57,567 nt of DNA from Acidimicrobiia bacterium (GTDB taxonomy: Bacteria; Actinomycetota; Acidimicrobiia; Acidimicrobiales; AC-14), in the NCBI GenBank assembly GCA_023265025.1, contig JAHFUP010000025.1, forward strand, positions 1-57,567, written 5' to 3'. This document shows, piece after piece, positions 9,812-42,101 of the stretch; the first letter of the stretch is position 1; the number at the start of each line of letters is the position of its first letter. Under the pieces are notes generated by a model that was not told the origin of the DNA, made no database searches, and worked only from the letters and a program-made list of their open reading frames with translations. The position numbers and the translations under genes are program-made.

Positions 9812-9907
9812 TTCGACCGCGACGGTAGATGCAGCCCGCAGCTATTGATTCCCGCCGCCGGCGTCAGTAGGACGGTGCTCCACAGAGATCGCTGCCGGGG
9901 GGTTGCC

Positions 9908-11500: not shown

Positions 11501-11510
11501 GGAGCCCGGA

Positions 11511-21637: not shown

Positions 21638-24600
21638 CTATGCCTTCTCGACGTCGACGAGGAAGCCCTTGAACTCCGGCGTGCGCACGTTGGCGTCGCC
21701 GATGTAGGGCGTGAGCAGGTTGGCCATCTCGGGCTTGCGGCTGACGGCGCCCTTGCCCCCGGAAAAGTTCCAGTGCAATGGGATGCCCACCTGGTAGACG
21801 ACCTTGCCCTGGCCGATGGTGAGGGGCCGCATGCGCTTGGTGACGATGGCGACGCCCTCGACCTCGCCCCGCTTGGAGCGGACCTTCACCCGCCCGCCGT
21901 TGACGATGCCCTTCTTCTCGGCCAGCTCCACCGGGAGCTCGATGAAGAAGTCGGGCATGGCCTCGACGAGGTAGGGCACGTGCTGGGTCACGTAGTGCTC
22001 GTGCTCGGTGACCCGGTACGTGGTGGCCACGTACGGGAACTCCTTGTCGTCGGTGGCGAAGCTCGCCGCCGCGTCCGTATAGATGAAGGTCGCCGGGTTC
22101 CGCTCCGTCCTGCTCAGGAGGTTGTTGAGCGGGGCCTCCGTCTGCTCGTAGTGCTCCGGGAACGGACCGTCCGTTGTCAGGGTGCCCGGGGCGAACAGCC
22201 GCGCCACACCCTCGCCGGTCATGATGAACGCCCCCTGGTTGGCACTCGGCGCCGACGCCACCGGAAAGTCCGGGACGTCGCCGACCCATGCCTTGCCGTC
22301 CCACTTCACGCCCGGCCGGGTCGGGTCCCAGGGGTTCCCGTTGGCGTCGGCCGAGGCCCGGTTGTACAGCACCCGGCGGTTCAGCGGCCAGGACCAGGCC
22401 CAGTTGTGGAAGTACCCCATGCCGGTGGGGTCGTCGGTCCCCCGGCGGGCCATCATGTTCCCCTCTTCGGGGTACGACCCGGTGTAAATCCAGTCTCCGG
22501 TGGTCGTGGTGCCGTCGTCCCTCAGCAGGGCGAACGACGCCAGACGCCTTCCTGTCGTCAGGTCGACGCCGTTGACCTCCTTGGCGATCTCCTCCAGCGG
22601 CGGGTTGCCCGGGTTGGAGTAGTTCCAGGTCAGGTTCTTGACCGGCTCGGGGAAGGCGCCGCCCTCCTTGGCGTACATGTCGCGGAGACGGAGGAGCAGG
22701 TGCCCGAGGATCCAGTTGTCGTCCCGCACGCCGGCTGGGCCGGGAAGCGCCTTGTACTTCCACTGCGCCCACCGTCCGGAGTTGGTGAACGACCCGGACT
22801 TCTCGATCCAGTGGGTGGCCGGCAGGAACAGGATCTCGGTCTTCACGTCGGCTGGGTCGACGCCCGGCGCCCGCCAGAACTCCGAGGCCGTCGTCGGCAG
22901 CGGGTCCATGATGACGAGCCACTTGAGCTTGCCGAGCGAGTCCGCCATGCGGTTCGAGTCGGGCCCCACGGCGACGCCGTGGAAGCCGCCGTAGATGATC
23001 CCGTCGAGTCGCCCGGAGCGGGCCTCGTCGTGGACCGTGAGCCACGACGAGTTCCCCGCCGGCTTGGGGACCCAGGAGTACGCGAAGTCGTTCTCAGGCT
23101 TGGCCGCGTCGCCGTAGAACGCCTTCAGCGTGCTGACGAGGAACCGCTTGTAGTTCGCACCGAAGAAGTTGATGGACGTCGGCCGCAGCTGCTTGGCCGG
23201 GACGCGGGAGATGTAGTCGTTGAGCGTCTCCATCCCGGGTCGGGGGATGGCCAGATAGCCGGGGAGGACCTCCCACGAGATGGCGTTGTCGGTGTTGCCC
23301 TGGATGTTGGCGTGGCCCCGCTCGGCGTTCACGCCTCCACCGGGTCGCCCGACGTTGCCGAGCAGCAGCTGCACCATGCCGAGCGCCCGGATGATCTGCA
23401 CGCCCGAGGTGTGATGGGTCAGACCGACGGCGTACACGATGCTACCGACCTTGTCCGCCACGCCGGTCGAGCCCATCAGCTTGGCGATCTCGACGAACTT
23501 GCCCTCGGGGATGCCGGTGATCTGCGACACCATGGCCGGCGTGTACCGGGCGTAGTGGGCCTTCATCACCTGGAACACCGAACGCGGGTGCTGCAACGTC
23601 GGGTCGACCTTGGCGAACGCGGCGGACGGGTCGGGCGCGCCCTCCGGTGGGATGTCGCGCTCGTAGTCCCATGACGTCGTGGTGTAGGTCCGCCTGGCCG
23701 CGTCGTAGCCCGAGAACAGGCCGTCGACGAACTTGTAGCTCTCGCTCACCAGGAACGAGGCGTTGGTGTGCAGCTTGACGTAGTCCTCGTGGTAGAGCTT
23801 GTTCTCGAGGATGTAGCTGATCAGCCCGCCGAAGAAGGCGGTGTCAGTCCCGGCTCGAATGGGCGCGTACACGTCGGCGATCGCCGACGTGCGGGTGAAC
23901 CGGGGGTCGACGTGGATGATCTTCGTCCCGTGCTCGTCGCGGCCGATCTGGGCCCACTTCCAACCGCAGGGGTGGTTCTCCGCCGGGTTCGCGCCGATGA
24001 CGAGGATGACGTCACTGTTCTTGAAATCCCGCCAGTGGTTGGTCATTGCCCCTCGACCGAATGAGGCGGCCAAACTGGCCACCGTGGGACCGTGTCAAAC
24101 ACGGGCCTGTTGTTCGAGGTACACAGTGCCCAGTCCCCGCATCAGCTTGGCGGTGAGGTAGCCCTCCTCGTTGCTGATGGTGGCCCCGCCGAGGAAGGCG
24201 AAGCCCGTCTGGCGGTTGACGGTGTTGCCCGCCTCGTCCTTCTCGGTGAAGTGCTTGTCGCGGGCGTCCTTCACCATGCGGGCCATGCGGTCCATGGCGT
24301 CGTCCCAGGAGACCTGCGTCCACTCGGCGGCGCCGGCGGCCCGGTACATCGGGCCCGCCGGCCGGTTGCCGTTGAGGGCCAGCTGGAGCGTCGACGCGCC
24401 CTTGGGGCACAGCGTTCCCGCGTTGATCGGGCTGTCGGGGTCGCCCTCGACGTGCAGCAGCGTGGGCACGGTGTTGGGCGCCTTGTCGCCGAGCGTGTAG
24501 GCGATCATCGAGCAGCCCACCGCGCAGTAGGGGCACACCGTCCGGGTCTCCGTCGCCTGGGAGATCTTGAGCTGGCGGACCTGCGCGTGCGCCGGCTGCA

Positions 24601-24685
24601 GGTCGAAGCCGAACGTCGAGACGCTCGCCGCACCGCCCGTCACGAGAGCCGAGCCCTTCAGGAATTGGCGGCGGGTGAGCTCCAT
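21638..24685 (-). CDS. fdhA: Formate dehydrogenase alpha subunit, selenocysteine-containing, Tat-exported
   Basis: This is the catalytic molybdo- or tungsto-enzyme that oxidises formate to CO2. An in-frame UGA at 24097-24095 would split the gene, but it sits exactly where FdnG-type enzymes have selenocysteine: QARV-U-HGPTVASLAASFGR. Reading through gives about 1015 residues with Sec at 197, very close to E. coli FdnG (about 1015, Sec196). Other features are a twin-arginine signal (LTRRQFLKG), an N-terminal [4Fe-4S] site CPYCAVGC...LCPKGAS, and GRGAMTNHWRDFKNSDVILV with family sequence onward to the stop. The ATG at 24685 has AGGAAAGAGG upstream; an in-frame extension to 24739 lacks Tat-like sequence. 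Export by Tat makes the complex face outward. Sec machinery is not in the window. Confidence 0.93.
24065..24097 (-). promoter_or_regulatory. Sec UGA codon and candidate SECIS hairpin in fdhA
   Basis: The UGA occupies 24097-24095. Eleven bases later, GGTGGCC (24083-24077), loop AGTTT and GGCCGCC (24071-24065) form a 7-bp stem with one G-T pair. The distance from the UGA matches the E. coli fdhF SECIS as remembered, and the GG-T-GGCC stem resembles that element's GG, bulged U and four-pair upper stem. Binding by SelB is an inference from geometry. Confidence 0.65.
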
Positions 24686-24862
24686 GGCGCGGCCTCTTTC
24701 CTGCGGTGGGCCGGGCCCTCCCGCCGAGGCCGAATCCACGCCGCATAATGCTCTTCAGGTTGTACGTCGATGATCGACCCCGGGCCAATGTTCGTCAAGG
24801 AGACATTGCTCCATCTCGGACAGTGCACAAAGACCCCCGGGGCGTGGGACGATGGCTCGCAT

Positions 24863-27487: not shown

Positions 27488-29168
27488 GTGCCGAAGAGTC
27501 ATCTGTTGGGGGCGCGCGGCGCGCTCGTCGTTGGCGCGGCCGCGCTGGCCCTGACGCTGATCCCGGGGTCGCCGTCGCAGGGTGCGCCGCCGACCGGCCC
27601 GCCGCTCGTCGGTCCGGCCATCCAGGTGACGCCGGACATCGACCCGTAGCGCGCCTACAACCCAGCCCCAGGTCGCGGTCGATCCCACCGACCCCCAGAC
27701 GATCGCCATCATCGGGGCGAACTACAACGCGGGAGCGTGCGGCGTCCAGGTCAGCCTGGACGGCGGCCGCACCTGGCGGGCGGGCAAGGGCAACGCCAAG
27801 CCGGCCGACGACAAGACCTGCGTGCGCAGCGACTCCGGCCCCTACCTCGACGGCGCCTTCGCCGGCGGGACCATCTTCCTGGCCTCGGCTTCGGACGACT
27901 TCGGCGGCCAGCAGGACGTCAACAACCTGTACCTGTCGCGCAGCACCGACCTCGGCGACACGTGGGAGACGACGATTGCCCACAAGGGCGGAACCTCCGT
28001 GGAGTTCACCGAGGTGAACGGGACCAAGAAGATCGGCGGCGAGCACTTCAGCCTCGTGCGCATGGGCATCGACTACGACAATCCGAAGTACGTCTGCGTC
28101 GGCGCCCGCCTCGGGCATGCCGACCGCACGCCCCCCTACGGGCTGTTCGGGAACGTCTCGTTGCGGGCGGTGGTCGTGGCCTCCGAGGACGGCGGCAAGA
28201 CGTGGGGGCCGATGATGGACCTCCTCGCCGGCCTGCCGCGGGACCAGTACGCCGGCTCCCGCCTCCCGGCCATCACGGTGGGCAGCGACGGCACCGTGTA
28301 CGCGTTCACCCGCGAGCGCCCGCCGCCCGCCGACACGGCCAAGCCGGCCAACGCGACCTCGCCGGCGGGGTCGCCCGGCGCCGGCGGTCGGCTGTTCCTC
28401 TCCACCGCCACCGACCACGGCAAGACGTGGACGACGAAGTCGATCGACGAGAGCGGCGTGCCGTGCACCGCCTGCACCGCCGAAGGCGTGTACAACGCCA
28501 AGACCGGCGAGCTGTACGTCGTGTTCGGGCAGCGCGACAACGCCGACGCCGAGCAGAACGTCTGGATCAAGCGGTCGACCGACGGCGGCGAGACGTTCGG
28601 CCCGTCGATCCGGGTGAACCACGACAAGACCGCCCGCGACCACCAGTACCCCCAGATCAGCGTGGCGCCGAACGGCCGAGTCGACGTCGCCTGGCACGAC
28701 TGGCGGAATGACACCCTGTTCAACCCGGCCGGCACCCGGCAGAACCAGCTGTACTGGGACATCTACTACAGCTATTCGAACGACGGCGGGCAGACCTGGG
28801 CCGAGGACATCCGGATGAGCGACCGGTCCATGAACAAGAACGAGGGCTACAGCTTCCACAGCAACTACGGCCTGGGCGGACCGACGGGGATCGCGTCGAC
28901 CGACGCCGCCGCACTGGTCGCGTGGGGCGACTCGCGGCGAGGATCGATCCAGCTCCCCGTGGAGGACTACTACTTCGCAGAAGCCGTCCACGATCGCAAG
29001 GCCCTGGAGGGCGGCGCCGGCGGAGGCGACGACAACACCGCCCGCGACATTGCGCTGGGAAGCGTGGTCACCCTCGTCGTCGCCGGCCTGGTGCTGCTGA
29101 TCGCGGCGACGGGCGTCGGCCGGCGGGCGGAACCGCGCCCGGACCCGAAGGCCACGGCGGCGGCGTGA
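27488..29168 (+). pseudogene. BNR/sialidase-like propeller gene broken near its 5' end
   Basis: A GTG at 27488 opens a signal peptide (GARGALVVGAAALALTLIPG) and mature start QVTPDIDP, which aligns with the paralogues at 9908 and 11511. An in-frame TAG at 27647-27649 then stops it. About ten bases later an extra A around 27658-27660 moves the propeller into another frame, which starts QPQVAVDPTDPQTIAI and runs to 29168. That frame contains Asp boxes (SLDGGRTWR, SEDGGKTWG, STDGGETFG, SNDGGQTWA), the shared APNGRVDVAWHDWR motif and a C-terminal membrane segment. Repairing one base and removing one would restore about 560 codons. A shorter protein could start near 27822, but without a signal peptide. 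Confidence 0.8.
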
Positions 29169-30860
29169 CCATCTCCAAACGGGCGGCGCGGGCCCTGGTC
29201 CCGGCGGCGGCCTTCGCCCTGCTGCCGCCGTTCGCCGGCGGGGCGACTGCGGCCGGGACGGTGCGACTGACCCAACCGGTGCAGACAACGCAGGGCGACG
29301 TCGACCCGGCGCGGACCTACACGTCGCCGTCCATCGCCATCGATCCTGAGAACCCGATGAACGTCGTCATGGCCTACGTCGAGGCCCGGAGCCGGCGGTG
29401 TGGCCTCATGCGCTCGACCGACGGCGGCGACACATGGACCCAGCTCGACGCCTCGCCGGCGACGCCTTCGTTCCCCGTCTGCTTCGTCATCAGCGGCCGG
29501 GTCGACATGGCGCCGGTGGCCTTCGGCCGTCACCACACGCTCTATTACGGGCTGAACGGCTACGACGACACCGACGGTGGGGTCAACAACGGCAACATCA
29601 GCGTGCTGGTGGCCCGCTCCGACGACCTGGGCGACTCGTGGAAGACGACCGTGGTCCACAACGTCCGAGGCAAGCAGCCGCCCGACACCGACTCGGCCCG
29701 GCCCGTGTCGGACCTGGCCGTGGACACCAGCGGAAAGGAGGACGTCGTCTACGTCGCCTGGCGCTCGGAGTACCGAACGTCGGTGGCGCCCAACCTGCGG
29801 CCCCGGGCGCCGCAGGTGGCGGTGTCCACCGACGGGGCCAAGACCTTCTCGCCCGCGTTCAACGTGGCCGCGCCGGCGTGGGCCGATCCCGCCGCACGCG
29901 CCGAGGCGCTGAAGACCACGACGACGGTGCCGGGGACGCCGACCACGACCGCCCCGCCGGCGGGATCGAAGGCGGCCCAGCCCGACCAGGCCGCCAACTT
30001 CGGCGGCAGCAACCCGTCCCTCACCGTCGACGGCAAGGGCAACGTCTACGTCGCGTGGATCACCCACAGCTCGAACATCACGCCGACGCCGCTGCCGGCC
30101 GTGTGGCTATCGAAGTCCACCGACGGCGGCAAGACCTTCGTCGCGTCGGCCATCACGCCGTTCCAGCAGGGCCTGTCCACCTTCGGCTCCCAGCGCATCC
30201 GCTGGGGCCCGGGGGGCGGCCCGTCGGGCACCCTGCACGTCGTCTACGAGGGCACGACCCATCCGGCGGTCGCCGGCGACACCGACACCTTCTACCAGCG
30301 CTCGACCGATGCCGGGCGCACGTGGAGCCCGGCGCGCTCGCTCAACGACGATCCCGCCGACTCCCTGTTCGCCCAGATCTCGCCGAACCTCAGCGTGGCG
30401 CCCAACGGTCGGGTGGACGTCGCCTGGTGGGACACCCGCAACGACCCCGGGTCCGCAGCAACGACGTGCACTACTCCTCGTCGACGGACAACGGGACGAC
30501 GTGGTCGCCGAACACCCGGATCACCGACAGGTCAGTCGATCGGCGGATCGGCATCTGGGCCAACGGCTACGACGTGAACGTGCCGCCGGGGATCGCGTCC
30601 ACGAACAAGTTCCTGGTCGTCGGCTGGGACGACACCCGCACCGGCACGCAGCTCACCCAGACCCAGGACCTCTTCACGGTGGACGCCCAGTTCGAGGAGG
30701 TGGGCGGTGGGACGTCGACCGGGGCAAGGTCGCGCTGGCCGCGGTGGTCGGCATCGCGGTGGTCGGTCTCGTCCTGCTCGCCGTGTCGGTCGCGGGCCGC
30801 CGGCGGGTGCAGCCGGCGCCGGCGCGGCGGGAGGCGGGCGCGGATCCGCTGCCCAGGTAA
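29165..30860 (+). pseudogene. BNR/sialidase-like propeller gene with two frame breaks
   Basis: The GTG at 29165 overlaps the previous stop in GTGA. It starts a signal peptide (LVPAAAFALLPPFAGGATAA) and the typical VDPARTYTSPSIAIDPENPM. Asp boxes include STDGGDTWT, STDGGKTFV and STDAGRTWS. Coding continues to the shared APNGRVDVAWWDTRNDP near 30450, then moves to a second frame (RSNDVHYSSSTDNGTTWSPN). At about 30710 it moves to a third (DRGKVALAAVVGIAVVGLVL, the C-terminal membrane segment), ending at 30860. Both breaks are consistent with loss of one base in G-rich stretches. The three pieces together reproduce the architecture of the intact paralogues. Confidence 0.8.
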
Positions 30861-31699: not shown

Positions 31700-32863
31700 T
31701 CACCCACCGGCTGGATCGACCTCCTCGAGGAGCCTGAGCGAGAGGAGCTCCCGGACGAAATCGTCGACGTCGGCTGCCGCCGTCACCGCCTGCACTGCGT
31801 AGGTCGCGACCGTGGCGTCGATCACGTTCTTACGAGACGCGCCGCCGGTCAGGCTCCGCCAGACGAAGGCACCCACCCCATCGAGCACGACGCGCTCGTG
31901 GCGATCCAACTGGACCGCCACCACACTCGCGCCCCGGAACCAGTAGACGGTCCGGGGGGAGATGCGGACGGCCATCGTGCCCTGCCACACGAAGGGGTCC
32001 CGAAACCGTCTGACATCAATCACGGGGCGCGGCTCGGGACGGTGCCGGCGATCGAGGCGTCCGGCCGTGAACCCGGCCCAGTAGTAGAGGTTCGAAATCG
32101 TCTCGGACCGGCTCGGTCGCCGGAGGCCTCGGGGGCTGAACTTTCCCCCGACGCCGTGGCTCATGTAGGCCCCGGTGAGCTGCGCGGCACCGCGGCCGTA
32201 GCGCCAGCCCTTGCGGAGGAACCTGGCCAATGGCTTGCCCTCGTGGTGCACGACGCCGGTTTCCGGCTCGTAGGCGAGGAGCCATCCGGCCAGGACGACA
32301 CGCCACGCGAGGTCCACGTCCTCCGCGGCGGCGAGCGACTCATCGAACATGCCGGCGTCGTCCAACGCGGCGCGCCGGTACATGCAATTGCCGGTCAGCA
32401 GCCAGGGGTAGAGAGACCGCCGGCCGGACACCGTCAGGTCGAGCAGCTCGTCGTCGGAGTGCGCCCCCGATGCGGCGATGAGGGCGTCCACGCGGGGATC
32501 GGTGGCCCCCCTCGACGTCGCGGCCTGGCATCCGCCGAGCTGCGGATCGACGAATCGCGCCGTCAATGCCGACACCCAGTTCGGCTCGGGAATCGAGTGG
32601 GCATCGAGGAAGGCCACAAGCGGCGCGGCGCCGTAGCGGAGCCCGGCGTTGCGAGCGGCAGCGGGACCGGCGCCGGCGCCCCGCAGGACGGTCGCCCCGC
32701 CCCGGCGCGCCACGTCGGTCGTCGCGTCGGTCGACGCGTCGTCGACCACGATGACGGTGATCGGACCCTCGGCGTATGTCTGGGTCGCGAGGGCTGCGAG
32801 GCACTCGCCGAGCTTCGCGGCCTCATTGCGGGCGGCGATGACGACGTCGACGGCGCCGGGCAT
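31700..32863 (-). CDS. Family 2 glycosyltransferase fused to a C-terminal PqqD-like domain
   Basis: Residues 1-230 form a GT2 domain: VDVVIAARNEAAKLGECLAA, VIVVDDASTDAT, FLDAHSIPEPNW at the nucleotide-sugar/metal site, and FDESLAAAEDVDLAWRVVLAG at the catalytic ED region. Residues about 305-382 look like PqqD: ISPRTVYWFRGASVVAVQLD, VVLDGVGAFVWRSLTGGA, and DVDDFVRELLSLRLLEEV. This aligns along its length with the free PqqD protein at 41689-41967. PqqD domains bind leader peptides of modified peptides, so the fusion suggests a glycosyltransferase guided to a peptide or protein. It lies four bases after the HprK-like gene. Reaction and acceptor are not known. Confidence 0.8.
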   Translation of the reverse strand: MPGAVDVVIAARNEAAKLGECLAALATQTYAEGPITVIVVDDASTDATTDVARRGGATVLRGAGAGPAAARNAGLRYGAAPLVAFLDAHSIPEPNWVSALTARFVDPQLGGCQAATSRGATDPRVDALIAASGAHSDDELLDLTVSGRRSLYPWLLTGNCMYRRAALDDAGMFDESLAAAEDVDLAWRVVLAGWLLAYEPETGVVHHEGKPLARFLRKGWRYGRGAAQLTGAYMSHGVGGKFSPRGLRRPSRSETISNLYYWAGFTAGRLDRRHRPEPRPVIDVRRFRDPFVWQGTMAVRISPRTVYWFRGASVVAVQLDRHERVVLDGVGAFVWRSLTGGASRKNVIDATVATYAVQAVTAAADVDDFVRELLSLRLLEEVDPAGG

Positions 32864-32867
32864 ATCC

Positions 32868-33881
32868 CTACGAGCGCCCCGCCACGAGCGATGGGATCAC
32901 GTCGAGGTCATCGTCGCCGAACTCGACGAGGAACGGGTCGGCCCTTTCCGAGAACGACGCCAGCAGCCGGAGGCACCACTGGCTGTAGGTCGCAAAGGTG
33001 TCGTCCCGGAACACACTGGCGCGGAAGACCGTCATCGCCTCGGCGACCAAGCGCCGGAAGACCTCCGCCCGTCGGAGGGCACGGAGACGCGGACGGTCGG
33101 TGGCGTCCCGGCGAAGCTGCACGTAGGTGTCGACGACCACCGGATGTCGCAGCGCCTGGGTCTCGCACGGACGGCGGCTCACCGCGTACTTTCCCCGATG
33201 GTCACGGCCGCCCACCACGCCGTCCGCCAGCTCGGGGAAAAGGGCGAGCGTCGCCGCCGACACATGGAGGTAGTCGAGCGACGAGAGCCCCACCGCACCA
33301 TCGTCGGCCAGCGCGAACAGCGGGCCGTCGTCGGCGAGCAACGCCCATCCGTCGCGCGCGAAGGCCAGCGCGGTCGTCGTCTTCCCGGCGCCCGCGCCCC
33401 CGGCGAGGAAGACGCCACGACCGTCCCGGGCCACCAGCGCGCCGTGCAGGGACGCCAACCCGTGGAACGGGAGCACGAAGCTCTGGAGCAGCGGCCGGAT
33501 CACCCGTCCCACCACGGCCTGCGGATCGCCGGCGAACTCGCCGCCGACGACGGTCCGGAGCCGACCCGCGACTGGGTCGTACTCGATCGCCTGCGGGTAG
33601 GGACCGTCGATTCGGGCGCCGAATCGCCCGTCGGCGAACCAGACCGGTCCACCACAGAGGTTGTTCTCGGCGAACACGGCACCGGGCCGCTCCGTGACCG
33701 AGGGGACCGACGACGGCTCGCCCAGCTCGACGCGCAGCTCGAGGGTGGTCCGCGGCGTGGCGGGCAGCACGTCATCGGGCAGCGCGCTGTCGATGTAGAG
33801 CGCATCGAGGAAGGGTCCGAGGTCGAGCGTCTCACTGGATATGGCGAATCTCAGTGAGTGAAGGTGAAGCGTGCGACGCAT
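32868..33881 (-). CDS. HPr kinase (HprK)-like P-loop kinase
   Basis: This 337-residue protein has a poorly conserved N-terminal half and a P-loop kinase domain related to the C-terminal half of HPr kinase, with Walker A FLAGGAGAGKTTTALAFA near residues 155-172 followed by WALLADDGPLFAL, which carries the Asp pair. Full HPr signalling is not implied. Such HprK-related kinases occur beside PqqD proteins and nucleotidyltransferases in exopolysaccharide loci, and some phosphorylate lasso peptides. ATG at 33881 overlaps the upstream GT4 gene by 50 bases. The substrate may be a peptide or a sugar. Confidence 0.75.
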   Translation of the reverse strand: MRRTLHLHSLRFAISSETLDLGPFLDALYIDSALPDDVLPATPRTTLELRVELGEPSSVPSVTERPGAVFAENNLCGGPVWFADGRFGARIDGPYPQAIEYDPVAGRLRTVVGGEFAGDPQAVVGRVIRPLLQSFVLPFHGLASLHGALVARDGRGVFLAGGAGAGKTTTALAFARDGWALLADDGPLFALADDGAVGLSSLDYLHVSAATLALFPELADGVVGGRDHRGKYAVSRRPCETQALRHPVVVDTYVQLRRDATDRPRLRALRRAEVFRRLVAEAMTVFRASVFRDDTFATYSQWCLRLLASFSERADPFLVEFGDDDLDVIPSLVAGRS

Positions 33882-35265
33882 GGCCCCTTCTTGCCGCGAG
33901 GATCCGGCGGAGCAACGGGACGAAGTCCTCCCGGCCCTCCAGCGCGAACACGACCTGGCACAGGTCGAACGTCGCCCGAAACGCCCGATGGTACTGGGCG
34001 CGGGGATTTCCCAGGTACGGCGCCAGGTCGTCGCGAAGCTCCCGAAGCCGTCCGAGCCCGTCGCAGCCGCCGTCCGTCGCCAGCGCGGCCAGGACCTGCT
34101 CGACCTGGTCCGTCAGCTCGCGGTGGCGGCGGAAGACGGCGATCGGCGTGAAGCCGCCTTCGTCCTCCAGACGGGCGAGGAGGGTCACGAGCGCCGCGGC
34201 GTCCACCGGCACCGCAGGTCGCCGCGCCTGGCGCAGCGCCCGCAACGCGTCCTCGAAGGCGTCGACGCCGGCCTCCCACTCATACGCCGTGCGCACCGTG
34301 TCGAAACCCCCGGCGACCAATCGCTCGGCCAACCCCTGTTCGTCAAGTACCGAAGCCAGCTTGGCGGCCAGATCGTCCGGGTTGTTGGCCTCGGCGAGGA
34401 CGAGGTTCACGCCGTCGACGCCGTACTCGTCCACGCCCAGGCTCTTCGTGGACACGACCGGGACGCCGCAGCAGAATGCCTCCAGCGCCGGCAAACCGAG
34501 CCCCTCGTACCAGGAGCAGCAGCAGTAGACGTCGGCGGAGGCGTAGATGCCCGGCATGGCGTCCTCTGGCGGGCACAGGTGGATGGTCTTGGGATACGGC
34601 AGTTCGTCGAACAGGCTGCGGTTCCGGTCCTCCTGGGTGGCCAGCACCAGCTCGACGTCGTGGTCGGCGCTCAGTATGCGCAGCGCCTCGAAACCGTCGG
34701 CCATGCCCTTGTACGGCATGAGGTAGTTGCCGACGAAGAGGATGCGGGCCGGCCCCGACCGCTCCCGTGGCGCCCGGGGCACGAAGACGTCCTTCCGGAT
34801 CCCGACCGGGGCGTGCCAGGCGTCGCGTCCGGTCCGTTCCCGGATCAACCGCCTCACGACCGCCGACTCGGTGACGATGGGGACCGGGAGTTGGTAGAGG
34901 TCGCGGAACACCGCCGAGGAGGCCATGAACCCTTCGTAGGTGCCGTCGGGCGAGTGATGGAAGCTCTCGTAGTCCTGGGCGTAGAAGACGAGCCGCTCGC
35001 CGGCGAGCGGCAGCAGCAACGGGACAAAGAACGCGTTGGTGGCGAAGACGAAGTCGTAGCGGGACGGATCGATGTCCTCGAGGTCGCGCGACGGGAGCAG
35101 GGGCAGCTCGAGGTCGTGCCAGCGGGGCGGGCCGGCGTAGGAGAACAGCTCGACCGAGTGCCCGCGCCGGGCCAGGCGCGAGGCCACCTCGAACACGACC
35201 TTGACGCCGCCGCTCAGGGCGGACGTGGGCAGGCAGAACAGGAGCCGGAGACGGTCCCCTCTCAT
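33832..35265 (-). CDS. Family 4 glycosyltransferase
   Basis: This 477-residue retaining glycosyltransferase has two Rossmann-like halves. The N-terminal half starts LRLLFCLPTSALSGGVKVVF; the C-terminal half has ARILFVGNYLMPYKG and the nucleotide-sugar motif CSWYEGLGLPALEAFCCGVP, an EX7E-type site. An extra C-terminal region of about 110 residues (from around VTLLARLEDEGGFTPIAVFR) is not part of a usual GT4 and is unrecognised. The ATG at 35265 overlaps the upstream stop in ATGA, so it belongs to the same transcript as the next GT4. Substrates are unknown. Confidence 0.85.
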   Translation of the reverse strand: MRGDRLRLLFCLPTSALSGGVKVVFEVASRLARRGHSVELFSYAGPPRWHDLELPLLPSRDLEDIDPSRYDFVFATNAFFVPLLLPLAGERLVFYAQDYESFHHSPDGTYEGFMASSAVFRDLYQLPVPIVTESAVVRRLIRERTGRDAWHAPVGIRKDVFVPRAPRERSGPARILFVGNYLMPYKGMADGFEALRILSADHDVELVLATQEDRNRSLFDELPYPKTIHLCPPEDAMPGIYASADVYCCCSWYEGLGLPALEAFCCGVPVVSTKSLGVDEYGVDGVNLVLAEANNPDDLAAKLASVLDEQGLAERLVAGGFDTVRTAYEWEAGVDAFEDALRALRQARRPAVPVDAAALVTLLARLEDEGGFTPIAVFRRHRELTDQVEQVLAALATDGGCDGLGRLRELRDDLAPYLGNPRAQYHRAFRATFDLCQVVFALEGREDFVPLLRRILAARRGHASHASPSLTEIRHIQ

Positions 35266-36359
35266 AGGGGCGACTGCAGTGCGGCGGGCAGCAGCGACCG
35301 GGTCCCCGCGCCGGCGATCGGATGCTCGATCGCCTCGGCCATCGCCTCGGCGATGGCTTCGACGTCGCCCGTCGGGACGACGGTGCCGTTCACCCCTTCC
35401 CGCACGTACTCCTTCATGCCCGTGTCCTCGGTGACGACCACGGGCACGCCGGCCGCCAGCGCCTCCAGTGGCGCGAAAGCCAGGGCGTCCTCGAACGACG
35501 GATGGACGAAAAGGTCGGCGCGGTGGAGGTGGGCCAGCGGGTCACCGGCGACGACGGCGATACGTGCATCAGCCCGGCGACGCTCGGTGACGAGCCGCTC
35601 GAAACTGTCGGTGGCGAACCGCCCGACGAGGACGAGGCGGAGGTCGGGCTGGCGCAGCCGCCGGAAGGCGTCGAGCAACAGGGCGACCCCCTTCGTCTGC
35701 TCCAGGCGCCCGACGTAGATCACGGTGAAGACGCCAGACGGCGGGCGGTGCACAGGCGGCGCGTACCGGGCCGGCACCGGGTGTACCCGTCGGACCAGCT
35801 TGTGCTCGGGCACGCCGGCCTCGACGAACGAGGCCCGGGCGTAGCTCGACATCACGCCGATGGTGTCGGCCGCCGCGTACTCGCGGCGCAGCTTGCGCAC
35901 GTGCAGCGGCGTGAGCCAGCTCGGCTCGACGGCGCCGGCGCCGGCCCGGCGGTGGAGGCGGCGGACGTTGTCGACATGGGACGTGGTCGCCTCGAGCGCC
36001 ACCCGAGCCGCGCCCCGCCGGCGGGCGGCGGCGAACGAGTGCAGGCCGGCGCCGTCCAGGGCGACGAAATCCACCTCGTCCAACGCCGCGCCGCGACCGA
36101 GGGACCGGGCCACCTGCCGGTCGAAGAGGTCCCGAGCCGCGAAGTCCCGCCAGCCGGGGCCGGCGGATCGCAACACGCCTCTGGTCACCCACCGCCAGCG
36201 GGAGAGGTCGACGACGTCGGCCGCGCCGTCGCCCGGTCGTCCCGCGGTGCAGTAGTAGCGGAGCAGCACATCCGCGCGCCGGGCATCCTCGACGACTGAC
36301 TGCAGGGCGCGACCGAGACCTCCCTGGCCGTAGGGGACGTGCCCGCTCACGATCCTCAA
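35262..36359 (-). CDS. Family 4 glycosyltransferase
   Basis: This 365-residue GT4 protein starts LRIVSGHVPYGQGGLGRALQ, where the glycine-rich turn is at the expected place. The donor-binding half includes VFTVIYVGRLEQTKGVALLL and HPSFEDALAFAPLEALAAGV. The start is taken as TTG at 36359, which overlaps the upstream nucleotidyltransferase stop in TTGA. A GTG at 36350 is the alternative; the longer open frame to 36629 lies in the neighbour's shadow. It is coupled by ATGA overlap to the following GT4. Sugar and acceptor are unknown. Confidence 0.83.
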   Translation of the reverse strand: MRIVSGHVPYGQGGLGRALQSVVEDARRADVLLRYYCTAGRPGDGAADVVDLSRWRWVTRGVLRSAGPGWRDFAARDLFDRQVARSLGRGAALDEVDFVALDGAGLHSFAAARRRGAARVALEATTSHVDNVRRLHRRAGAGAVEPSWLTPLHVRKLRREYAAADTIGVMSSYARASFVEAGVPEHKLVRRVHPVPARYAPPVHRPPSGVFTVIYVGRLEQTKGVALLLDAFRRLRQPDLRLVLVGRFATDSFERLVTERRRADARIAVVAGDPLAHLHRADLFVHPSFEDALAFAPLEALAAGVPVVVTEDTGMKEYVREGVNGTVVPTGDVEAIAEAMAEAIEHPIAGAGTRSLLPAALQSPL

Positions 36360-37516
36360 GGCCCGACGCCGCCTCCGAGCGCTCGCCGGATACTGGCGTC
36401 TCCTACTTTCGGTGAGGGCGACCCCGCCCAACGCCGCCACCGGAAGCGCACCCAGGTGCGGGCGGTCCCATGGCTGCGCCGGATCATCCGCCGGGCGACG
36501 ACGACGCCGGCGCGCGGACCCCGCTGCTCGATCAGCGCGGCGAGCGTATGGATGCCGGCGGGCATCCTCCGGGAGACGTCCCAACGTCCGCTCGCCGGCG
36601 CAGCCCGGAAGGACCGTCGGGTCACCCACGACGCGTCCAAGGCCCGCAGGCGGCGCAGCAGACGTGTGTCGACCTCGATCCCGGCGAGGGCGCGCAGGTA
36701 GTCGAGGGCGGCGGCGGCCGGCGGACCGAGGCCCTCGGCGGCGGCCAGCTCGACGAACACGTCATGGTCGAGATCCCCGGCGCCGAGGATGGCGAGCGCG
36801 TCGGGCACCCAGCGGACCGACCCACCGCGGAACCGATGGGTGCCGTGGTGGATGACGTGCAGGAGCAGGTCAGCGCGGTGGCCGTCCCGGACCGCGCTAC
36901 CGGCCAGGGTGCCCGGCGTGCTGCGCTGCCATCGGCCGCCCTCGTCGCGGTCGCCCATCGGATCGCGAAACAGGCTCCGATGGAGGTCGATCTCCCGCCC
37001 GGCCGGGTCGATGAGCTCGACGGCGTGATATGGAAAGTCGACAGCCGGCTCCGACCGCGCCGCATACCCGGCCGACCTGAGCACCTCAATGGCGCGGGGC
37101 CACTGGCCGGCGGGCACCAGCAGGTCGACGTCGAGCATCGGCCGGGCCCCGACGTCGCCGTAGTACCGGTCGACGAGTGCCGCGCCCTTGAGGGCCATCA
37201 CAGGAATACCGTCGCGGTGGAGGGAGTCGGCCGCGACTGAGGCGGCGCGCAGGAGCGTGTGGTTGCGGGCCCATGTCGCCCGGTACCGGTCCGCGGCCCG
37301 GGCGACCCACGGCTCGTCGTCGTCGACGCCGAACCGGTGCCGGCGCCGGTAGGCCAGGGCGAGCAGCCGTGCGCTCTCGCTGTCGCATCCATACCGGTCG
37401 GCGTCGTCGGTCCACGCCCTCCATGCCTTGGGGCCGGCGTCGGGCGTGAACAGAGCGACCAGGAGGAGCTCGCTCGGCGGAGAACCGGTCCAGCGCGCCC
37501 GAGCCACGGTCCACAA
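36356..37516 (-). CDS. Uncharacterised nucleotidyltransferase (NTP_transf_5-like)
   Basis: This 386-residue protein resembles the NTP_transf_5 group (PF14907): DGIPVMALKGAALVDRYYG, then the Asp pair in ARPMLDVDLLVPAGQWPRA near residue 130, HAVELIDPAGREIDLHRSLF, and ADLLLHVIHHGTHRF. Members of this group occur with HprK-like kinases and PqqD proteins in lasso-peptide and exopolysaccharide clusters. Their reaction is not established. The frame opens at a TTG at 37516; a GTG at 37507 is equally plausible. Only eight bases separate this from the divergent gene on the plus strand. Confidence 0.75.
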   Translation of the reverse strand: MWTVARARWTGSPPSELLLVALFTPDAGPKAWRAWTDDADRYGCDSESARLLALAYRRRHRFGVDDDEPWVARAADRYRATWARNHTLLRAASVAADSLHRDGIPVMALKGAALVDRYYGDVGARPMLDVDLLVPAGQWPRAIEVLRSAGYAARSEPAVDFPYHAVELIDPAGREIDLHRSLFRDPMGDRDEGGRWQRSTPGTLAGSAVRDGHRADLLLHVIHHGTHRFRGGSVRWVPDALAILGAGDLDHDVFVELAAAEGLGPPAAAALDYLRALAGIEVDTRLLRRLRALDASWVTRRSFRAAPASGRWDVSRRMPAGIHTLAALIEQRGPRAGVVVARRMIRRSHGTARTWVRFRWRRWAGSPSPKVGDASIRRALGGGVGP

Positions 37517-37524
37517 TAGGCTCC

Positions 37525-38226
37525 GTGGTGACGGCGCCGGCCCGGCGACAGCAAGAGACCGAGGACCTCGCCGCCTACCGGCGGCTGGCCGCCCACGCCG
37601 CCCGGGGTCGGGCTCGGCCGGCGGCCCTCCGGGCCTACGCCGCGAGTCCGGCCACCTCGATGCGGGCCGTCCGCTACGTGCTCTCGCTCCCCCGCCTGAC
37701 CCTCCGACCCACGGCGTCGCCGGCGGGAGACAGGGTGCGCGCCGGGATCGCCCGAACCGCGGGGCGATCGGGGTGGGGCCTCCGGCTGGCCCAGCCGGTG
37801 CTGGCGATCCCGCCCACCGAGGCGGCGTACGTCACGGGGAACCGGCGCCAGACGGTCCGCAAGAACGCCCGCAAGGCGGCGCGTGACGGGTACTGCTGCC
37901 GTACCGTCCCCGTCGATGAGGCGCTGACGGTGCACGGGCTGACGGTCCCCGATGGGCGGCTCGTGGCCGTCGCCGAGTCCGCCGACGGAACGCCTCGGGC
38001 CATCACCTTGGCTACCGTCGACGGAGAGTGGGCGCTGCTCGAGGGCATGCTGAAACTCGGCGACGACACGCCGTCGTCGGCCCGCTACCTGCTCCAGCTC
38101 TACCGCCTCGCCGGCGCCCACCACCTCCTGGCCCCCCTCCCGCACCCCGACCGGCCCGGCCTGCGGTACTTCCAGCACATCCTCGGGTTCGTGCCGACCA
38201 ACGTCATCCTGGGACCCCCGACCTGA
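37525..38226 (+). CDS. Acetyltransferase/FemAB-like protein
   Basis: This 233-residue protein contains YVTGNRRQTVRKNARKAARD, a basic helix like that in GNAT/FemAB-related acyltransferases. It also has a C-terminal half with LKLGDDTPSSARYLLQLYRL and PGLRYFQHILGFVPTNVI, which looks like the end of an acetyltransferase fold. The overall match is weak, so the function is tentative. GTG codons at 37525 and 37528 are possible starts. It is divergent from the nucleotidyltransferase gene, and its end overlaps the convergent acyltransferase gene by 23 bases. Confidence 0.5.
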   Translation: MVTAPARRQQETEDLAAYRRLAAHAARGRARPAALRAYAASPATSMRAVRYVLSLPRLTLRPTASPAGDRVRAGIARTAGRSGWGLRLAQPVLAIPPTEAAYVTGNRRQTVRKNARKAARDGYCCRTVPVDEALTVHGLTVPDGRLVAVAESADGTPRAITLATVDGEWALLEGMLKLGDDTPSSARYLLQLYRLAGAHHLLAPLPHPDRPGLRYFQHILGFVPTNVILGPPT

Positions 38227-39034
38227 AGGAGTCTGGCCGGAAGCGCTCGGGCGCCGACGACAGGAAGTCCTCGATCCAGCGCCCGAGTGACTCGGCCATT
38301 CGGAGGTCGACGTCAGAGCCGTCGTCGGGCTCGTTCGTGGCCGGGGCCAGGCCGTCGCCCACCACGACGGTCAGCGCCGGCCGGTACCGGTGCCACCGCG
38401 CGGCTACGGGGAACACCGGCCGCCCCGACCGGCGGGAGAGCGCGAACGCGCCCCTCCGGAACGTGATGGTCTCGCCGAGGACCGTGACGGGAGGGGTGTC
38501 ACTCCCTCGGCGGCCGTCGACGGCAACGACGACCAACCCACGTGCGGCGAGGCGCTCGCGCGCCCGGTCGAGCGCCGCTCTCGAATCGACCCCGACGCGA
38601 ACGAACTCGATGCCCGGCGTGGGCTCCGGATCACCGGCGTGGATGAAGAACAACGCCGGTAGCCCTTGGCCGGAGAGCGCCGGTGCGATGGCCGTGATGG
38701 TCGCTCCCGCGTGCCAGGTGGCCAGCACGCCGCCGGTGGCCCGGAGGCCGGCCACAGGGTTGTCCGGCGCCCAGGCCACGACCCGCCCTATCCGCCCCAG
38801 TCCATAGCGCCGGACCACCGCTTCGAGCAGCCACGTGCGTGCCTCGTTCGCCGCGAGGTCGCCGGCCACACGCGCCGGCCGGCCGCCGTAGCGGCCGGCG
38901 AGGGCTGGCCGGCCGGAGCGCCGCCGCAGGCGCTCCCGCACCCGGTTCACGACGCCGGCGACGGCCAGCGTCGACCGCGGGGCGAGGTGCGCCGGCACTG
39001 CGAGGAGGCCGAGCGCCCGTTCGTGCGCCGTCAT
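38204..39034 (-). CDS. LpxL/HtrB-like (lysophospholipid) acyltransferase
   Basis: This 276-residue protein resembles LpxL/HtrB and mycobacterial PIM acyltransferases: GVLATWHAGATITAIAPAL, where the conserved His-containing box should be, then VVVAVDGRRGSDTPPVTVLG, and FRRGAFALSRRSGRPVFPVA. The HxxxxD/E catalytic box is not in its usual form (WHAGATI), so activity is uncertain. The ATG at 39034 overlaps the stop of the DUF4091 gene in ATGA. It probably adds an acyl chain to a glycolipid or similar envelope precursor made by this cluster. Confidence 0.7.
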   Translation of the reverse strand: MTAHERALGLLAVPAHLAPRSTLAVAGVVNRVRERLRRRSGRPALAGRYGGRPARVAGDLAANEARTWLLEAVVRRYGLGRIGRVVAWAPDNPVAGLRATGGVLATWHAGATITAIAPALSGQGLPALFFIHAGDPEPTPGIEFVRVGVDSRAALDRARERLAARGLVVVAVDGRRGSDTPPVTVLGETITFRRGAFALSRRSGRPVFPVAARWHRYRPALTVVVGDGLAPATNEPDDGSDVDLRMAESLGRWIEDFLSSAPERFRPDSFRSGVPG

Positions 39035-40613
39035 CGGTCGCCGGCGATGGCCTGGAGGGCCAGGGCATGGGACGCCAGCCGGGCGCGGAAGCGGGACAGG
39101 TCACCCCCGGTGAGGTGCGGGTAGGGCTCGGTCGACGTCTCAGAAGCGACATCGACGGCGGTCAGGGAGATCGCCGCCGCCAGCTCGTCGAGCGTCGCCC
39201 GGACCTTCACGCACTCCTCGGCCTTCGGCCCGGCCACCGCGTCAGCCGCGACGAGCAGCTCGTCCACCGTCGTGACATAGCGCAGGTCGGTGATCCCTTC
39301 GCCCATGCCCTCCCACTGCAACGTCGGCACCACGCCGGTGCGGGCGGGATAGGTGGCCAGGTGGTCCTTGTAGTCGTCGGCCGTGCCCCCGATCACGAAG
39401 CCGGGCTCCCAGTCGTCGAAGTCGTCGTACGGCGAGTTCGGGTGCACCGGCAGGTGCTGATAGCAGTAGGGCGCGATGCCGGCGGCGCCGCTCTTCCACA
39501 GGTAGAACCCGGCCAGGACGCGGTGGACGTTCGGCTTCTCCATGTGGGCCGCCCAGTGGTAGTAGACGCCGCCGACGCGGCCGGCGACGAACTCCCGGCT
39601 CCGCGGGAGGTACACACTGACGACGTCGGGGACCGGCCCCAGCTCGGCCAGGCGCGGGAGGAACCCGGCGTCCGCGATCGACGCCATGGTCGGAAGGCCG
39701 AGCCCGGCGGCGCCGGCGAGGTTGCGCCGGTGCCCGTCATGCCACTCCTCGCCCCGTACATCGATCTCGTCACTCACGTACACCACCGGTCGGAGGCCGC
39801 CAAAGTCGGCCGGCGTGATGCCGGCGGGCACCGGTGCGTGGAGCACGACGGTGCCGGCGAACCCGGCCTCACGGGCCAGGCGCGCCGCCCGCCGCACCAG
39901 GGCGGGCCGGCGCTCGTTCAGCGAGATGGCGGTGAACCCGTGGCTGCGGATGTCGGCCAGCTGGGAGCAGAACACGTCCTCGGGCACCCGGTGCTGCGGC
40001 TGGGCGCAGTCGATCGTGCCGCGGTACCAGAGGAACCGTTCTTGCCGAGGTTCACGCAACGCCAACGGGAGGACGGTCACCCCCACGTAGATCTCGACGC
40101 ACGCGCCGCCGGCGGCGCGCACCTCGATGGCGCCGGCGTGATGACCAGCAGCGGCACCGGCCGGTACGGTCGCCGTGACCCAGACCTGCACCGGCTCGCC
40201 CGCAATCACGCCGGCGGTCGCCGGCCCGGTCAGCCGCAACGCCGGCGGTCGGTAGTAGCGAGGCCGCCGGCGCAGGCGGTGGAGATGACGAAGGTGCCCG
40301 CAAAACACGGTGTAGCCGTCGGTCAGCTCCTCTCGGTCGTCCTTGACGAGCAGCTCGGCAACGGGCTTCCGGGGGCCCCGTACACGCCGACGCCGGCCTG
40401 CTCCCAGACCTTCACGACCCATACGTCCAGCCAATCCCCGATGTCGCCCATGGCCCGGATGGTCAGCGGGCCGGCGTTAGCGGCCACGTCGAAGGAGAGC
40501 GCCACCCGTTCACCCGGCGTCGCCGTGGCCGAAAGCCGGCGCACTGGCACCCCGGTCCCACACCGTTCGTAGGGCTCGTGAGCGGACGCCACCAGGCCGC
40601 CTGTCACCACCAC
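39031..40613 (-). pseudogene. DUF4091 (GH123-related) protein with a frameshift
   Basis: The gene reads in one frame from about 40613 (GTG at 40613, 40610 or 40607) to about 40375, with VALSFDVAANAGPLTIRAMG and WLDVWVVKVWEQAGVGVYG. It then moves to a second frame starting RKPVAELLVKDDREELTDGY and running to 39031. The shift falls in GGGGGCCCC at 40371-40379. The later part has SDEIDVRGEEWHDGHRR, a region rich in Trp/Tyr (YCYQHLPVHPNSPYDDFDDW), and a C-terminal TLQWEGMGEGITDLRYVTTV. The last element resembles the DUF4091 C-terminal domain of GH123-like enzymes. The acyltransferase gene overlaps its stop. Confidence 0.65.
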
Positions 40614-40634
40614 GCTGGTACTTTGCAACGAGGA

Positions 40635-41702
40635 ATGGCGACTCCCGGACGGCCGACCGTGGTCGTGACGGTTCCCGTGCGCGACGAGGCCGCCAACCTC
40701 CCGCGCCTGCTGGCCACGACGCTGCTCTGGGCGGACCACGTTGTCATCGCCGACCAGGGCTCCAGCGACGGCTCGGCGGAGCTGGCCCGGTCGTTTCCCG
40801 GGGTGACCGTGGTCGACAACCCGTCGCGGTCATACGGCGAGGACGCCCGGCAGCAGATCCTCCTCGACGCGGCGCGGAAGCTGACGCCGGCGCCCCGACT
40901 CCTCGTCGCCCTCGATGCCGACGAGATCATGTCGGCCAACGTGCTGGAGTCCGAAGAGTGGGACGAGGTCCTCCGGGCTCTGCCCGGCACGAGCATCCGC
41001 CTCGCTCGGGTGGAGCTGGCGGCGGACACCACGCGGTACCTCCGCCACTGGTGGGACGATGCCGGTGTCCGCGGCGGGTTCGCGTACATGGACGACGGCG
41101 CGGCCCACACCGGCCGGCGACTTCATTCGAACCGGCTTCCGGAGCCGCCCGCACCGCGGCTGTCGCTGGAGGACGTGGTCGTGCTGCACTACTCCCAGGC
41201 CAGCCCCCGCCGGGTGGCCAGCCGGGAGCGGTGGTACCAGTGCTTCGAACGGGTGCACTTCCCGGACCAGTACGGCGACGTCGCCATCCGCCGCCGCTAC
41301 GACTGGCTCAAGCGGGCCGGTCCGGACGTGCGCATGCGATCGTGCCCGGCGGCCTGGACCGGGGCCTACGCCCGAGCCGGCATCGACCTGGTGCAGCCTG
41401 CGGAGGACCGCTACTTCTGGACGGACTGGGACGTCCTGCGCATGTTCGACTGCCACAGCACCTCGACATTCCGCTTCCTCGACATCTGGAACTTCGACTG
41501 GGAAGCGGCTCGGGGCGAGGCGGTGGCGCGCGGCATCGCCGGCGTGCCGCCCCGCCCGATCGTGCCTCCGGGTGACGTCGTGAGCCGGAGTGTACGGCGC
41601 TTCCTCGATCTCTCCGCCCGTACCCGTTGGCGGGTCTATACCGATGCCGCGGTGTCCAAGGGGCTGGCAGTCGTCACCCGGTCCCGAAATGGCCACCGCT
41701 AA
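40635..41702 (+). CDS. Family 2 glycosyltransferase
   Basis: This protein of about 355 residues is a GT2-type enzyme: VVVTVPVRDEAANLPRLLAT, VVIADQGSSDGSAELARSFP and LVALDADEIMSANVLESEEW at the Asp-x-Asp-like site. The second half has many aromatic residues (YFWTDWDVLRMFDCHS, FRFLDIWNFDWEAARG) and may form the acceptor side. The ATG at 40635 has an AGGA sequence, but it lies very close to the start codon. The gene is divergent from the DUF4091 gene, and its end overlaps the free PqqD gene by 14 bases, which suggests coupled translation. Confidence 0.82.
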   Translation: MATPGRPTVVVTVPVRDEAANLPRLLATTLLWADHVVIADQGSSDGSAELARSFPGVTVVDNPSRSYGEDARQQILLDAARKLTPAPRLLVALDADEIMSANVLESEEWDEVLRALPGTSIRLARVELAADTTRYLRHWWDDAGVRGGFAYMDDGAAHTGRRLHSNRLPEPPAPRLSLEDVVVLHYSQASPRRVASRERWYQCFERVHFPDQYGDVAIRRRYDWLKRAGPDVRMRSCPAAWTGAYARAGIDLVQPAEDRYFWTDWDVLRMFDCHSTSTFRFLDIWNFDWEAARGEAVARGIAGVPPRPIVPPGDVVSRSVRRFLDLSARTRWRVYTDAAVSKGLAVVTRSRNGHR

Positions 41703-41967
41703 GCTCGGCGACGTGTCGGTGCCGCAGCGCGAGGTGGCATGGGAGGTCGTGGATGGCGAGGCCGTCATCGTGGACGTGACGACAGGCGACTACTTCTCGT
41801 TGAATGCGGTGGGCACCGATGTGTGGACGTCTCTGCACCGTGGCGCGGACGTTCCTTCTATCGTGGCTGCAACGGTAACGAGGTACGGGGTCGACCGGGC
41901 GACGGTTGCTCGCGACGTCGAGGATCTCATCGGTGAGCTGGAGGACATAGGCCTATGGAACCCGTGA
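41689..41967 (+). CDS. PqqD-family peptide-chaperone-like protein
   Basis: This 92-residue protein has the PqqD/RRE fold pattern: VAWEVVDGEAVIVDVTTGDY, FSLNAVGTDVWTSLHRGADV, then helices with ARDVEDLIGELEDIGLW. PqqD proteins bind leader peptides of ribosomally made peptides and hand them to modifying enzymes. Its ATG overlaps the end of the GT2 gene, and its own end overlaps the 48-residue peptide gene by 13 bases, so all three are likely made together. It aligns well with the PqqD part of the GT2 fusion at 31700-32863. Confidence 0.85.
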   Translation: MATAKLGDVSVPQREVAWEVVDGEAVIVDVTTGDYFSLNAVGTDVWTSLHRGADVPSIVAATVTRYGVDRATVARDVEDLIGELEDIGLWNP

Positions 41968-42101
41968 GCGAGTCGGTCGAACCGGTGGAGCCCGACGAGC
42001 ACGCCGCCGACGACCGCGAGCTGCCGCGGTACGAGAAGCCGGTGATTCGGCGATACGACCAGATCGACCAGGTACGGCCGTACGGGCCGAGCGAGGTCTA
42101 A
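41955..42101 (+). CDS. Short peptide, candidate PqqD-bound precursor
   Basis: The 48-residue frame starts with ATG at 41955, 13 bases inside the PqqD gene, and ends with TAA at 42099-42101. It has an acidic N-terminal half (many Glu and Asp) and then YEKPVIRRYDQIDQVRPYG near the C-terminus. Y-x-K-P-x-[IL]-x-x-Y/G is the pattern found in leader peptides of lasso and related PqqD-guided peptides (from memory of the family). There is no lasso cyclase or leader protease in the window, and no obvious core cleavage site. A real gene is supported by the overlap and by codon bias; the precursor role is an inference. Confidence 0.6.
   Translation: MEPVSESVEPVEPDEHAADDRELPRYEKPVIRRYDQIDQVRPYGPSEV

Follow-up and report, generated by a model that had tools for sequence, protein, structure and literature searches.

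RiPP recognition elements (RREs), PqqD-type domains among them, serve as grips for the precursors of ribosomally synthesized and post-translationally modified peptides (RiPPs). In the linear polyphosphorylated peptides (LPPs) of Bacillota, a discrete RRE binds a YxxP peptide that becomes polyphosphorylated, with no cyclase in the system (PMC13381572), while in pseudomycoidin an HprK-like kinase (PsmK) phosphorylates the C-terminal Ser and the NTP_transf_5-like protein PsmN has been credited with the addition of hexoses to the phosphoserine (PMC9266682). Lasso-type clusters are also dealt with in PMC9332814 and PMC10040529; an HPr kinase, a nucleotidyltransferase and a family 2 glycosyltransferase (GT2) lie beside lasso genes in Butyrivibrio (PMC7533575); and fusions of an RRE to a glycosyltransferase have been named in PMC7470986 and PMC12710340 (PF00535 in the latter). 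Here, we analyzed a glycosyltransferase-rich locus with two PqqD domains (positions 31700 to 42101) on contig C118 (GenBank JAHFUP010000025.1) of an Acidimicrobiia bacterium with a 5.45-Mb genome in 185 contigs; the whole contig (57.6 kb) is referred to below as the window.

We give a probability of about 0.4 to our preferred reading, namely that this is a non-lasso RRE locus, partly or wholly descended from a widespread gene set in which PqqD carries a C-terminal tail and is accompanied by HprK, GT2 and NTP_transf_5 proteins, that the tail now lies in a separate overlapping open reading frame (ORF), and that this RRE-held peptide would be phosphorylated and glycosylated. A contrast within the genome supports the non-lasso assignment. 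Two of its five PqqD domains are inside the window; the remaining three loci (on contigs C60, C86 and C163) each have an Asn_synthase-type cyclase, an NTP_transf_5 protein and an HprK beside PqqD and are therefore lasso-type clusters, whereas no such cyclase was found in the window by a profile seeded with two of the genome's own cyclases and one other. An earlier sequence-only reading of this DNA had also reported no lasso cyclase, and this held. Local profiles likewise gave no window match for an ABC transporter, MsbA-like exporters included, or for a B2 leader protease (a profile from a single L104 protein, with which the lasso locus L095 also showed no B2), and no precursor with a threadable core was seen in the window. 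All of these profiles were built from few seeds of our own, and genes were called with a simple program adjusted to high-GC DNA; the absences are only that reliable, and the neighbor survey described below (mostly of lower-GC cyanobacteria) is weakened as well.

A decayed lasso cluster that has lost its cyclase and protease is a highly improbable origin for the locus, even with three lasso clusters elsewhere in the genome and a free PqqD (41689..41967, + strand, 92 aa) that resembles lasso RREs. This domain matches PF05402 at 57.6 bits, as B1-type RREs of lasso clusters do, and reaches 51.2 bits against lasso_PqqD_Strm (cut-off 70), with all lasso-specific NCBIfam models staying below their cut-offs. 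Against decay stand the intact coding composition and active sites and the NTP_transf_5 protein, which groups with the tail loci introduced next and not with the genome's own lasso loci.

PqqD was found in 99 of 396 genomes of the phylum (E ≤ 1e-5) and in 64 of 250 genomes of the order (E ≤ 1e-4). We fetched 140 stretches (L093 to L232), most around PqqD matches and some around NTP_transf_5 or GT2 matches alone, and annotated them with locally built profiles; the counts cover the fetched PqqD loci only. Several loci rich in glycosyltransferases combine PqqD, HprK and NTP_transf_5 with no cyclase detected, and in seven loci from five genomes (three in G057, the others in G006, G127, G044 and G694) the PqqD has a C-terminal extension of 48 to 56 residues with a YxxP-like motif, which we call the tail. 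A profile search of public genome contigs with six tail PqqDs (set A1) gave 65 loci, and 72 tails were collected in total. By the labels of their records, many of which are metagenome-assembled genomes (MAGs), the 65 loci fall into ten phyla: Cyanobacteriota (23), Chloroflexota (13), Pseudomonadota (8), Actinomycetota (7), Planctomycetota, Gemmatimonadota and Acidobacteriota (3 each), and Myxococcota, Bacteroidota and Binatota (1 each), with two unplaced; one record with a PqqD+tail locus, titled Bifidobacterium breve (a MAG; L291), is perhaps mis-binned.

PqqD and tail are present in all 65 loci by way of discovery, and some loci lie near contig ends. Local profiles placed GT2 in 56 of the 65, HprK in 53, NTP_transf_5 in 47 and all three in 43, and a cyclase (AsnB) or B2 in none. 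The sequence-only reading had proposed that a PqqD-type RRE works together with a kinase, an NTP_transf_5 protein and glycosyltransferases, and the recurrence of HprK, NTP_transf_5 and GT2 around the RRE in 43 of the 65 scanned loci supports that proposal. The tails themselves have an aromatic residue (F/Y/W) and P in xxP register in 66 of 72 aligned sequences and, after a linker, a consensus of roughly [FYW]xxPxLxK[YF][TDH]D[ML]x[DE]LLLLDP[IV]H[ED]V..GWP; the end reads DP[IV]H[ED]V in 63 tails and takes the shorter ALDPP form in 9. PF05402 misses some tail PqqDs (none in G006 at 1e-5, yet L100 has one by local profile), and eight PqqD+tail, kinase and NTP_transf_5 proteins compared with NCBIfam all stayed below the model cut-offs. 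Beyond the profiled families, no gene recurs in more than nine of 75 tail loci. Eight short YxxP ORFs lie no further than 2.5 kb from a tail PqqD, and these are mutually unlike, none of them recurring; the tail is therefore the only peptide candidate seen in tail loci.

In the AlphaFold model of one such protein (L236), the RRE matches TbiB1 with a Z score of 13.2, and tail residues 111–120, which hold the FxxP, have a mean predicted local distance difference test (pLDDT) score of 95 with a strand at 117–119; a VIA-align check of this model covers mainly residues 1–99 and is thus silent on the tail. The model suggests that the FxxP segment of these relatives lies against the RRE in the manner of a leader. 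RRE-glycosyltransferase fusions and the LPP gene set are already known; neither a PqqD with a conserved leader-like tail nor a gene set of this kind apart from lasso and LPP clusters was found in the open-licence literature, a weak negative given that supplements and most subscription papers are outside that scope.

The same tails could act purely as a scaffold, with YxxP segments docking domains so that surface-glycan glycosyltransferases, kinase and NTP_transf_5 assemble and no peptide is modified or released. RiPP cores are variable, in contrast to the tail end, which is strongly conserved across phyla. Nor do the tails share a strictly conserved Ser/Thr: the position before D[ML] is T in 57, D in 11 and H in 4, and any S/T further on occurs in 51 of 72, which argues against a substrate of a Ser kinase, and hence against our preferred reading, and speaks for a scaffold. 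RREs of the window's order are also fused to other enzymes, namely GT4 with a C-terminal PqqD (L099, 19.6 bits, under the Pfam cut-off of 23.4; L212, 29.3 bits), HprK (L096:16003-17127(+), where L096 and L119 are overlapping stretches of one contig, and L102:10856-12070(+)) and an FkbM-type methyltransferase (L212:1053-2591(+), 23.3 bits, just under the cut-off), and no free peptide accompanies the RREs of L099, L100, L101 and L212. In the tested cases, however, proteins of the HprK-like and NTP_transf_5 types that neighbor an RRE have peptides as their substrates (PMC9266682, PMC13381572), and we regard a pure scaffold as doubtful.

In the window, the free PqqD begins within the end of a GT2 gene (14 nt overlap), and a 48-aa ORF with a YxxPxI motif (41955..42101, + strand) begins within the end of PqqD, in a different frame; the overlap of 13 nt agrees with the earlier description of an overlapping peptide gene. 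The PqqD alone scores 72.2 bits on the tail-family profile (set A2, 52 of the 72 tail proteins, from ORFs of 125–166 aa and with L291 left out), and joined with the peptide it scores 87.4 bits (+15.2), with 0 of 1,000 shuffles as high. With a profile limited to the 46 public-genome rows, the joined score was 86.5 bits (0 of 1,000 shuffles); limited to the six same-order rows, it was weaker, at 70.6 bits (9 of 1,000 shuffles). Among 151 frames downstream of 104 PqqDs, a set that includes the window, the largest gain is that of the window's frame (12.3 bits in this test; next, 4.2), where the control left out PqqDs that lie in ORFs of >250 aa, are followed by >20 residues or bear a tail, as well as frames open for <25 codons. 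Unjoined, the peptide scores 11.1 bits, with 1 of 5,000 shuffles as high, above all 23 leader peptides (the next, L140, at 9.3), and a first small tail profile had given it 6.2 bits (5 of 2,000 shuffles as high).

Is this short frame a gene at all? A GGAGG at 41940-41944 stands ten bases before its ATG, and it is the sole one of 118 window ORFs of 40–60 aa with a GC content of at least 0.89 at third (GC3) and at most 0.40 at second (GC2) codon positions, limits that were chosen after the ORF had been seen. Because of this composition and the upstream GGAGG, the 48-aa ORF is likely to be coding. A search of 147 other genomes of the order gave a sole match at E ≤ 1e-3, in G143, which is antisense to the start of a regulator-like ORF and was taken as chance. 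As for the lasso-leader-like character that the peptide had been given, the YxxPxI is there, but the usual Gly and Thr positions of lasso leaders differ, and only about 6–8 residues follow the motif region, leaving no lasso-sized core.

The peptide could instead be an independent precursor, that of an LPP-like linear phosphorylated or glycosylated RiPP that follows PqqD by chance. The core genes are those of LPP loci (YxxP peptide, discrete RRE, HprK-like kinase, NTP transferase, glycosyltransferase-rich surroundings and no cyclase), Ser46 is near the C-terminus, the ORF has its own ATG and upstream GGAGG, and its 17-residue motif score (see below) is closer to lasso leaders than to tails. We nonetheless think this unlikely, given the few residues beyond the motif, the lack of an ABC transporter match by the local profile, the resemblance of the peptide to tails in the same position, and the absence of peptidase families from the cluster proteins scanned with Pfam, a scan that covered part of the window's ORFs and included no dedicated SpI model. 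Still less likely, in our estimate, is a single PqqD+tail gene that a recent frameshift, or an error in sequencing or assembly, has broken in two. The joined product would have about the length of its relatives in the same order (137 aa against 132–161 aa in six) and a second frame break is suspected at ~40370; on the other side are the separate GGAGG and ATG and a C-terminus that is diverged and short even if joined. Across these options, the scores make it somewhat more probable than otherwise that the peptide is a diverged counterpart of the tail, whether the split is genuine or due to a base error. The interpretation given in the sequence-only reading is supported in part; the peptide is probably the counterpart of a tail and not a free lasso-like precursor, though some of the evidence speaks against this.

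The enzymes give a mixed picture of descent. The HprK-like kinase (32868..33881, − strand) is under the Pfam cut-off (PF07475, 26.3 bits against 33.3), and we accept the label on the His-Lys-Asp-Asp residues that it keeps in alignment with lasso kinases. The NTP_transf_5 nucleotidyltransferase-fold protein (36356..37516, − strand; PF14907, 115.7 bits, cut-off 31.2) has an intact KG..DxD motif, so the active-site motifs are intact in both proteins. NTP_transf_5 is present in 95 of 396 sampled genomes of the phylum (E ≤ 1e-8). In a tree of 125 proteins with midpoint rooting (as in all our trees, each distinct sequence that passed length and score limits is represented once), the window protein lies inside five nested groups whose other members all come from PqqD+tail loci (25 to 45 of the 64 rows of this kind; SH-aLRT 82–91), and in an earlier, smaller tree it stood beside L101 and L100 (84–92). 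There is thus moderate support for an NTP_transf_5 ancestry shared with PqqD+tail loci. Compared with that family of loci, the window has an NTP_transf_5 of the same clade, at this moderate support, and has neither the tail on the PqqD polypeptide (the peptide is a separate ORF in another frame) nor the conserved tail end. No orthologous locus was found, and analogous same-order loci proved mixed as to whether peptide and PqqD stay together: the peptide is fused to PqqD in L100, L101, L217, L221, L222 and L227 (three in G057, one each in G006, G127 and G044), and L099 and L212 show no peptide.

Several observations weigh against our preferred reading. Of the non-tail ORFs in 141 sequences, the window peptide ranks first, yet its E-value is only 0.41, and it ends in PYGPSEV, with neither DP[IV]H[ED]V nor ALDPP. 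On a 17-residue motif score against tails it obtains −11.6, compared with 40.8–53.2 for the 15 tails shown, and 7 of 19 lasso leaders exceed it; on the corresponding score against lasso leaders it obtains +2.5, compared with 4.8–36.5 for the 19 leaders left out one at a time (the profile omits four of the 23 leader peptides, L120, L169, L206 and L188). A true lasso leader, L140, gains 11.2 bits when joined to PqqD (14 leaders tried), and much of the window's 15.2 bits may therefore reflect the shared YxxP motif. The conserved tail end of the L236 model is of low confidence (pLDDT block means 54–66). No NTP_transf_5 group that contains the window protein is starred, and its best identity is 32%. 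The window kinase sits on a long branch with the kinases of L099 and L228, outside the tail-locus kinases, so the locus may be a mosaic. Finally, the C-terminal 190 residues of the GT2-RRE fusion described next had no full-query match in the order's 396 other sampled genomes, each scored for at most 8 candidates, the longest match covering residues 73–185.

This fusion (31700..32863, − strand) consists of a GT2 domain (~residues 1–230; PF00535, 79.1 bits) and a C-terminal RRE/PqqD (~298–381; PF05402, 40.9 bits, cut-off 23.4). Residues 298–381 match the lasso RRE TbiB1 (5v1u) at E 5.9e-6, which by sequence identifies the C-terminal part as an RRE, and the linker (residues 211–288) is modeled below 50. 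A PqqD match in a 463-aa frame of G265 was among the results of the C-terminal search. With the whole protein, the single other match in 395 phylum genomes (E ≤ 1e-30, 4 candidates scored per genome) was to the GT2 part only, in G437, and no relatives were found in viral contigs or plasmids.

Pfam and NCBIfam were also run on the remaining cluster proteins. The gene content given by the sequence-only reading is confirmed for the fusion, NTP_transf_5, free PqqD, two GT4 glycosyltransferases (33832..35265, PF00534, 83 bits; 35262..36629, PF00534, 105.8 bits; both − strand, the listed ORF of the second entering the NTP_transf_5 gene, with a probable start at ~36350) and a GT2 glycosyltransferase (40578..41702, + strand; PF13704, 37.1 bits; PF00535, 32.4 bits; likely ATG at 40635, judged from the sequence). 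Of two proteins described as acyltransferase-like, one retains the label weakly (38204..39034, − strand; PF01553, 21.1 bits, cut-off 23), and the other (37525..38226, + strand) is an ORF of coding-like composition, possibly acyl- or aminoacyl-transferase-like, with no family near its cut-off (best E 0.21). No Pfam family supports the label DUF4091 for the protein at 39031..40434 (− strand); its ORF overlaps that at 40323-40739 (also − strand and free of Pfam families), and the two are possibly parts of a single gene whose frame is broken at ~40370. A scan for promoters and terminators gave nothing above shuffles. Elsewhere in the window, the frame of a formate dehydrogenase-N alpha subunit (21638-24739, − strand) contains one in-frame TGA at 24095-24097, possibly for selenocysteine, and five BNR-repeat proteins lie at three places (9845-13085, 27822-30577 and 55602-57242).

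Some PqqD loci of the survey deserve mention in their own right. G057, of the same order as the window, has thirteen PqqD matches in one 3.8-Mb genome, and in L220:8911-9564(+) a signal-like segment, RRDLLMK, and long repeats of proline and threonine come after PqqD. Peptides of ~50 aa resembling YEKPxMxVMRINRFFFGGCQxxWPNCYSxYLFxPGAARCR lie beside B2, PqqD, HprK-like and NTP_transf_5 proteins with no cyclase detected (L116 at 6537, L120 at 6452, L122 at 8923, L125 at 6200, L126 at 7055, L127 at 12796, L133 at 12224, L135 at 11488 and L143 at 6592; more loosely, L169 at 11369 and L171 at 6816), in a short-ORF listing that leaves out the part from within L147 to L166; they are possibly another non-lasso RRE peptide family.

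By analogy with the described systems, the likely role of the window locus is RRE-guided phosphorylation and glycosylation of a peptide or of a complex that holds it. Under our preferred reading, what is a tail in the relatives has turned into, or is seen as, an overlapping ORF of its own without the conserved end, and one GT2 carries its own RRE. The YxxP segment of the peptide would be held by the free RRE or by that of the GT2, which would bring the C-terminal end of the peptide, or proteins attached there, to the HprK-like kinase, NTP_transf_5 and the glycosyltransferases; these enzymes would phosphorylate and then glycosylate the peptide, as PsmK and PsmN treat pseudomycoidin. For the window we infer every part of this scheme (binding, phosphorylation, glycosylation and product). 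A bolder and speculative extension is that an RRE fused to its own conserved peptide forms a self-presenting phospho-glycan carrier in many phyla, and that in this lineage its RRE and its peptide have come apart, a glycosyltransferase having gained an RRE to catch the freed peptide. Loci in which an RRE bears its own conserved peptide beside a kinase and sugar enzymes, with no cyclase, protease or separate precursor detected, would extend RRE-guided chemistry beyond small peptides, into the biology of glycans or carrier proteins in Cyanobacteria, Chloroflexota, Actinomycetota and other groups. The tail offers a simple handle on the function of HprK-like and NTP_transf_5 proteins away from lasso clusters.

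Compared with described systems, the sequence-only reading was half right in not recognizing this combination of genes, since the set of RRE, HprK-like kinase, NTP transferase and YxxP peptide without a cyclase is that of LPPs (PMC13381572) and RRE-glycosyltransferase fusions have been named (PMC7470986, PMC12710340). Those fusions are like the window's in joining an RRE to a glycosyltransferase. The best NCBIfam match of the GT2 part is the mycofactocin glycosyltransferase MftF (TIGR03965), but at 154 bits against a cut-off of 280 it falls outside that family. The HPr-rel-A system (TIGR04352/TIGR04353) likewise places a kinase and a PqqD-related protein in one neighborhood, with both models under cut-off in the window (33.8 of 200 bits and 24.6 of 35 bits). 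Lasso clusters of the pseudomycoidin/paeninodin type share with the window an RRE, an HprK-like kinase with H-K-D-D and an NTP_transf_5-type protein, and differ from it in the cyclase, B2 and lasso core, none of which was found there. The closest described system is that of the LPPs of Bacillota. The window has their discrete RRE, HprK-like kinase (motif intact, though under the Pfam cut-off), NTP transferase and YxxP peptide, with no cyclase, and LPP loci, too, are often rich in glycosyltransferases. It differs in having no MsbA-like exporter by the local profile, no real core and no LPP leader consensus (YxxPxVLxHQxIxFETxxS, where the window peptide reads YEKPVIRRYDQIDQVRPYG), and in having a GT2-fused RRE; in the loci related to the window, moreover, the peptide is fused to the RRE.

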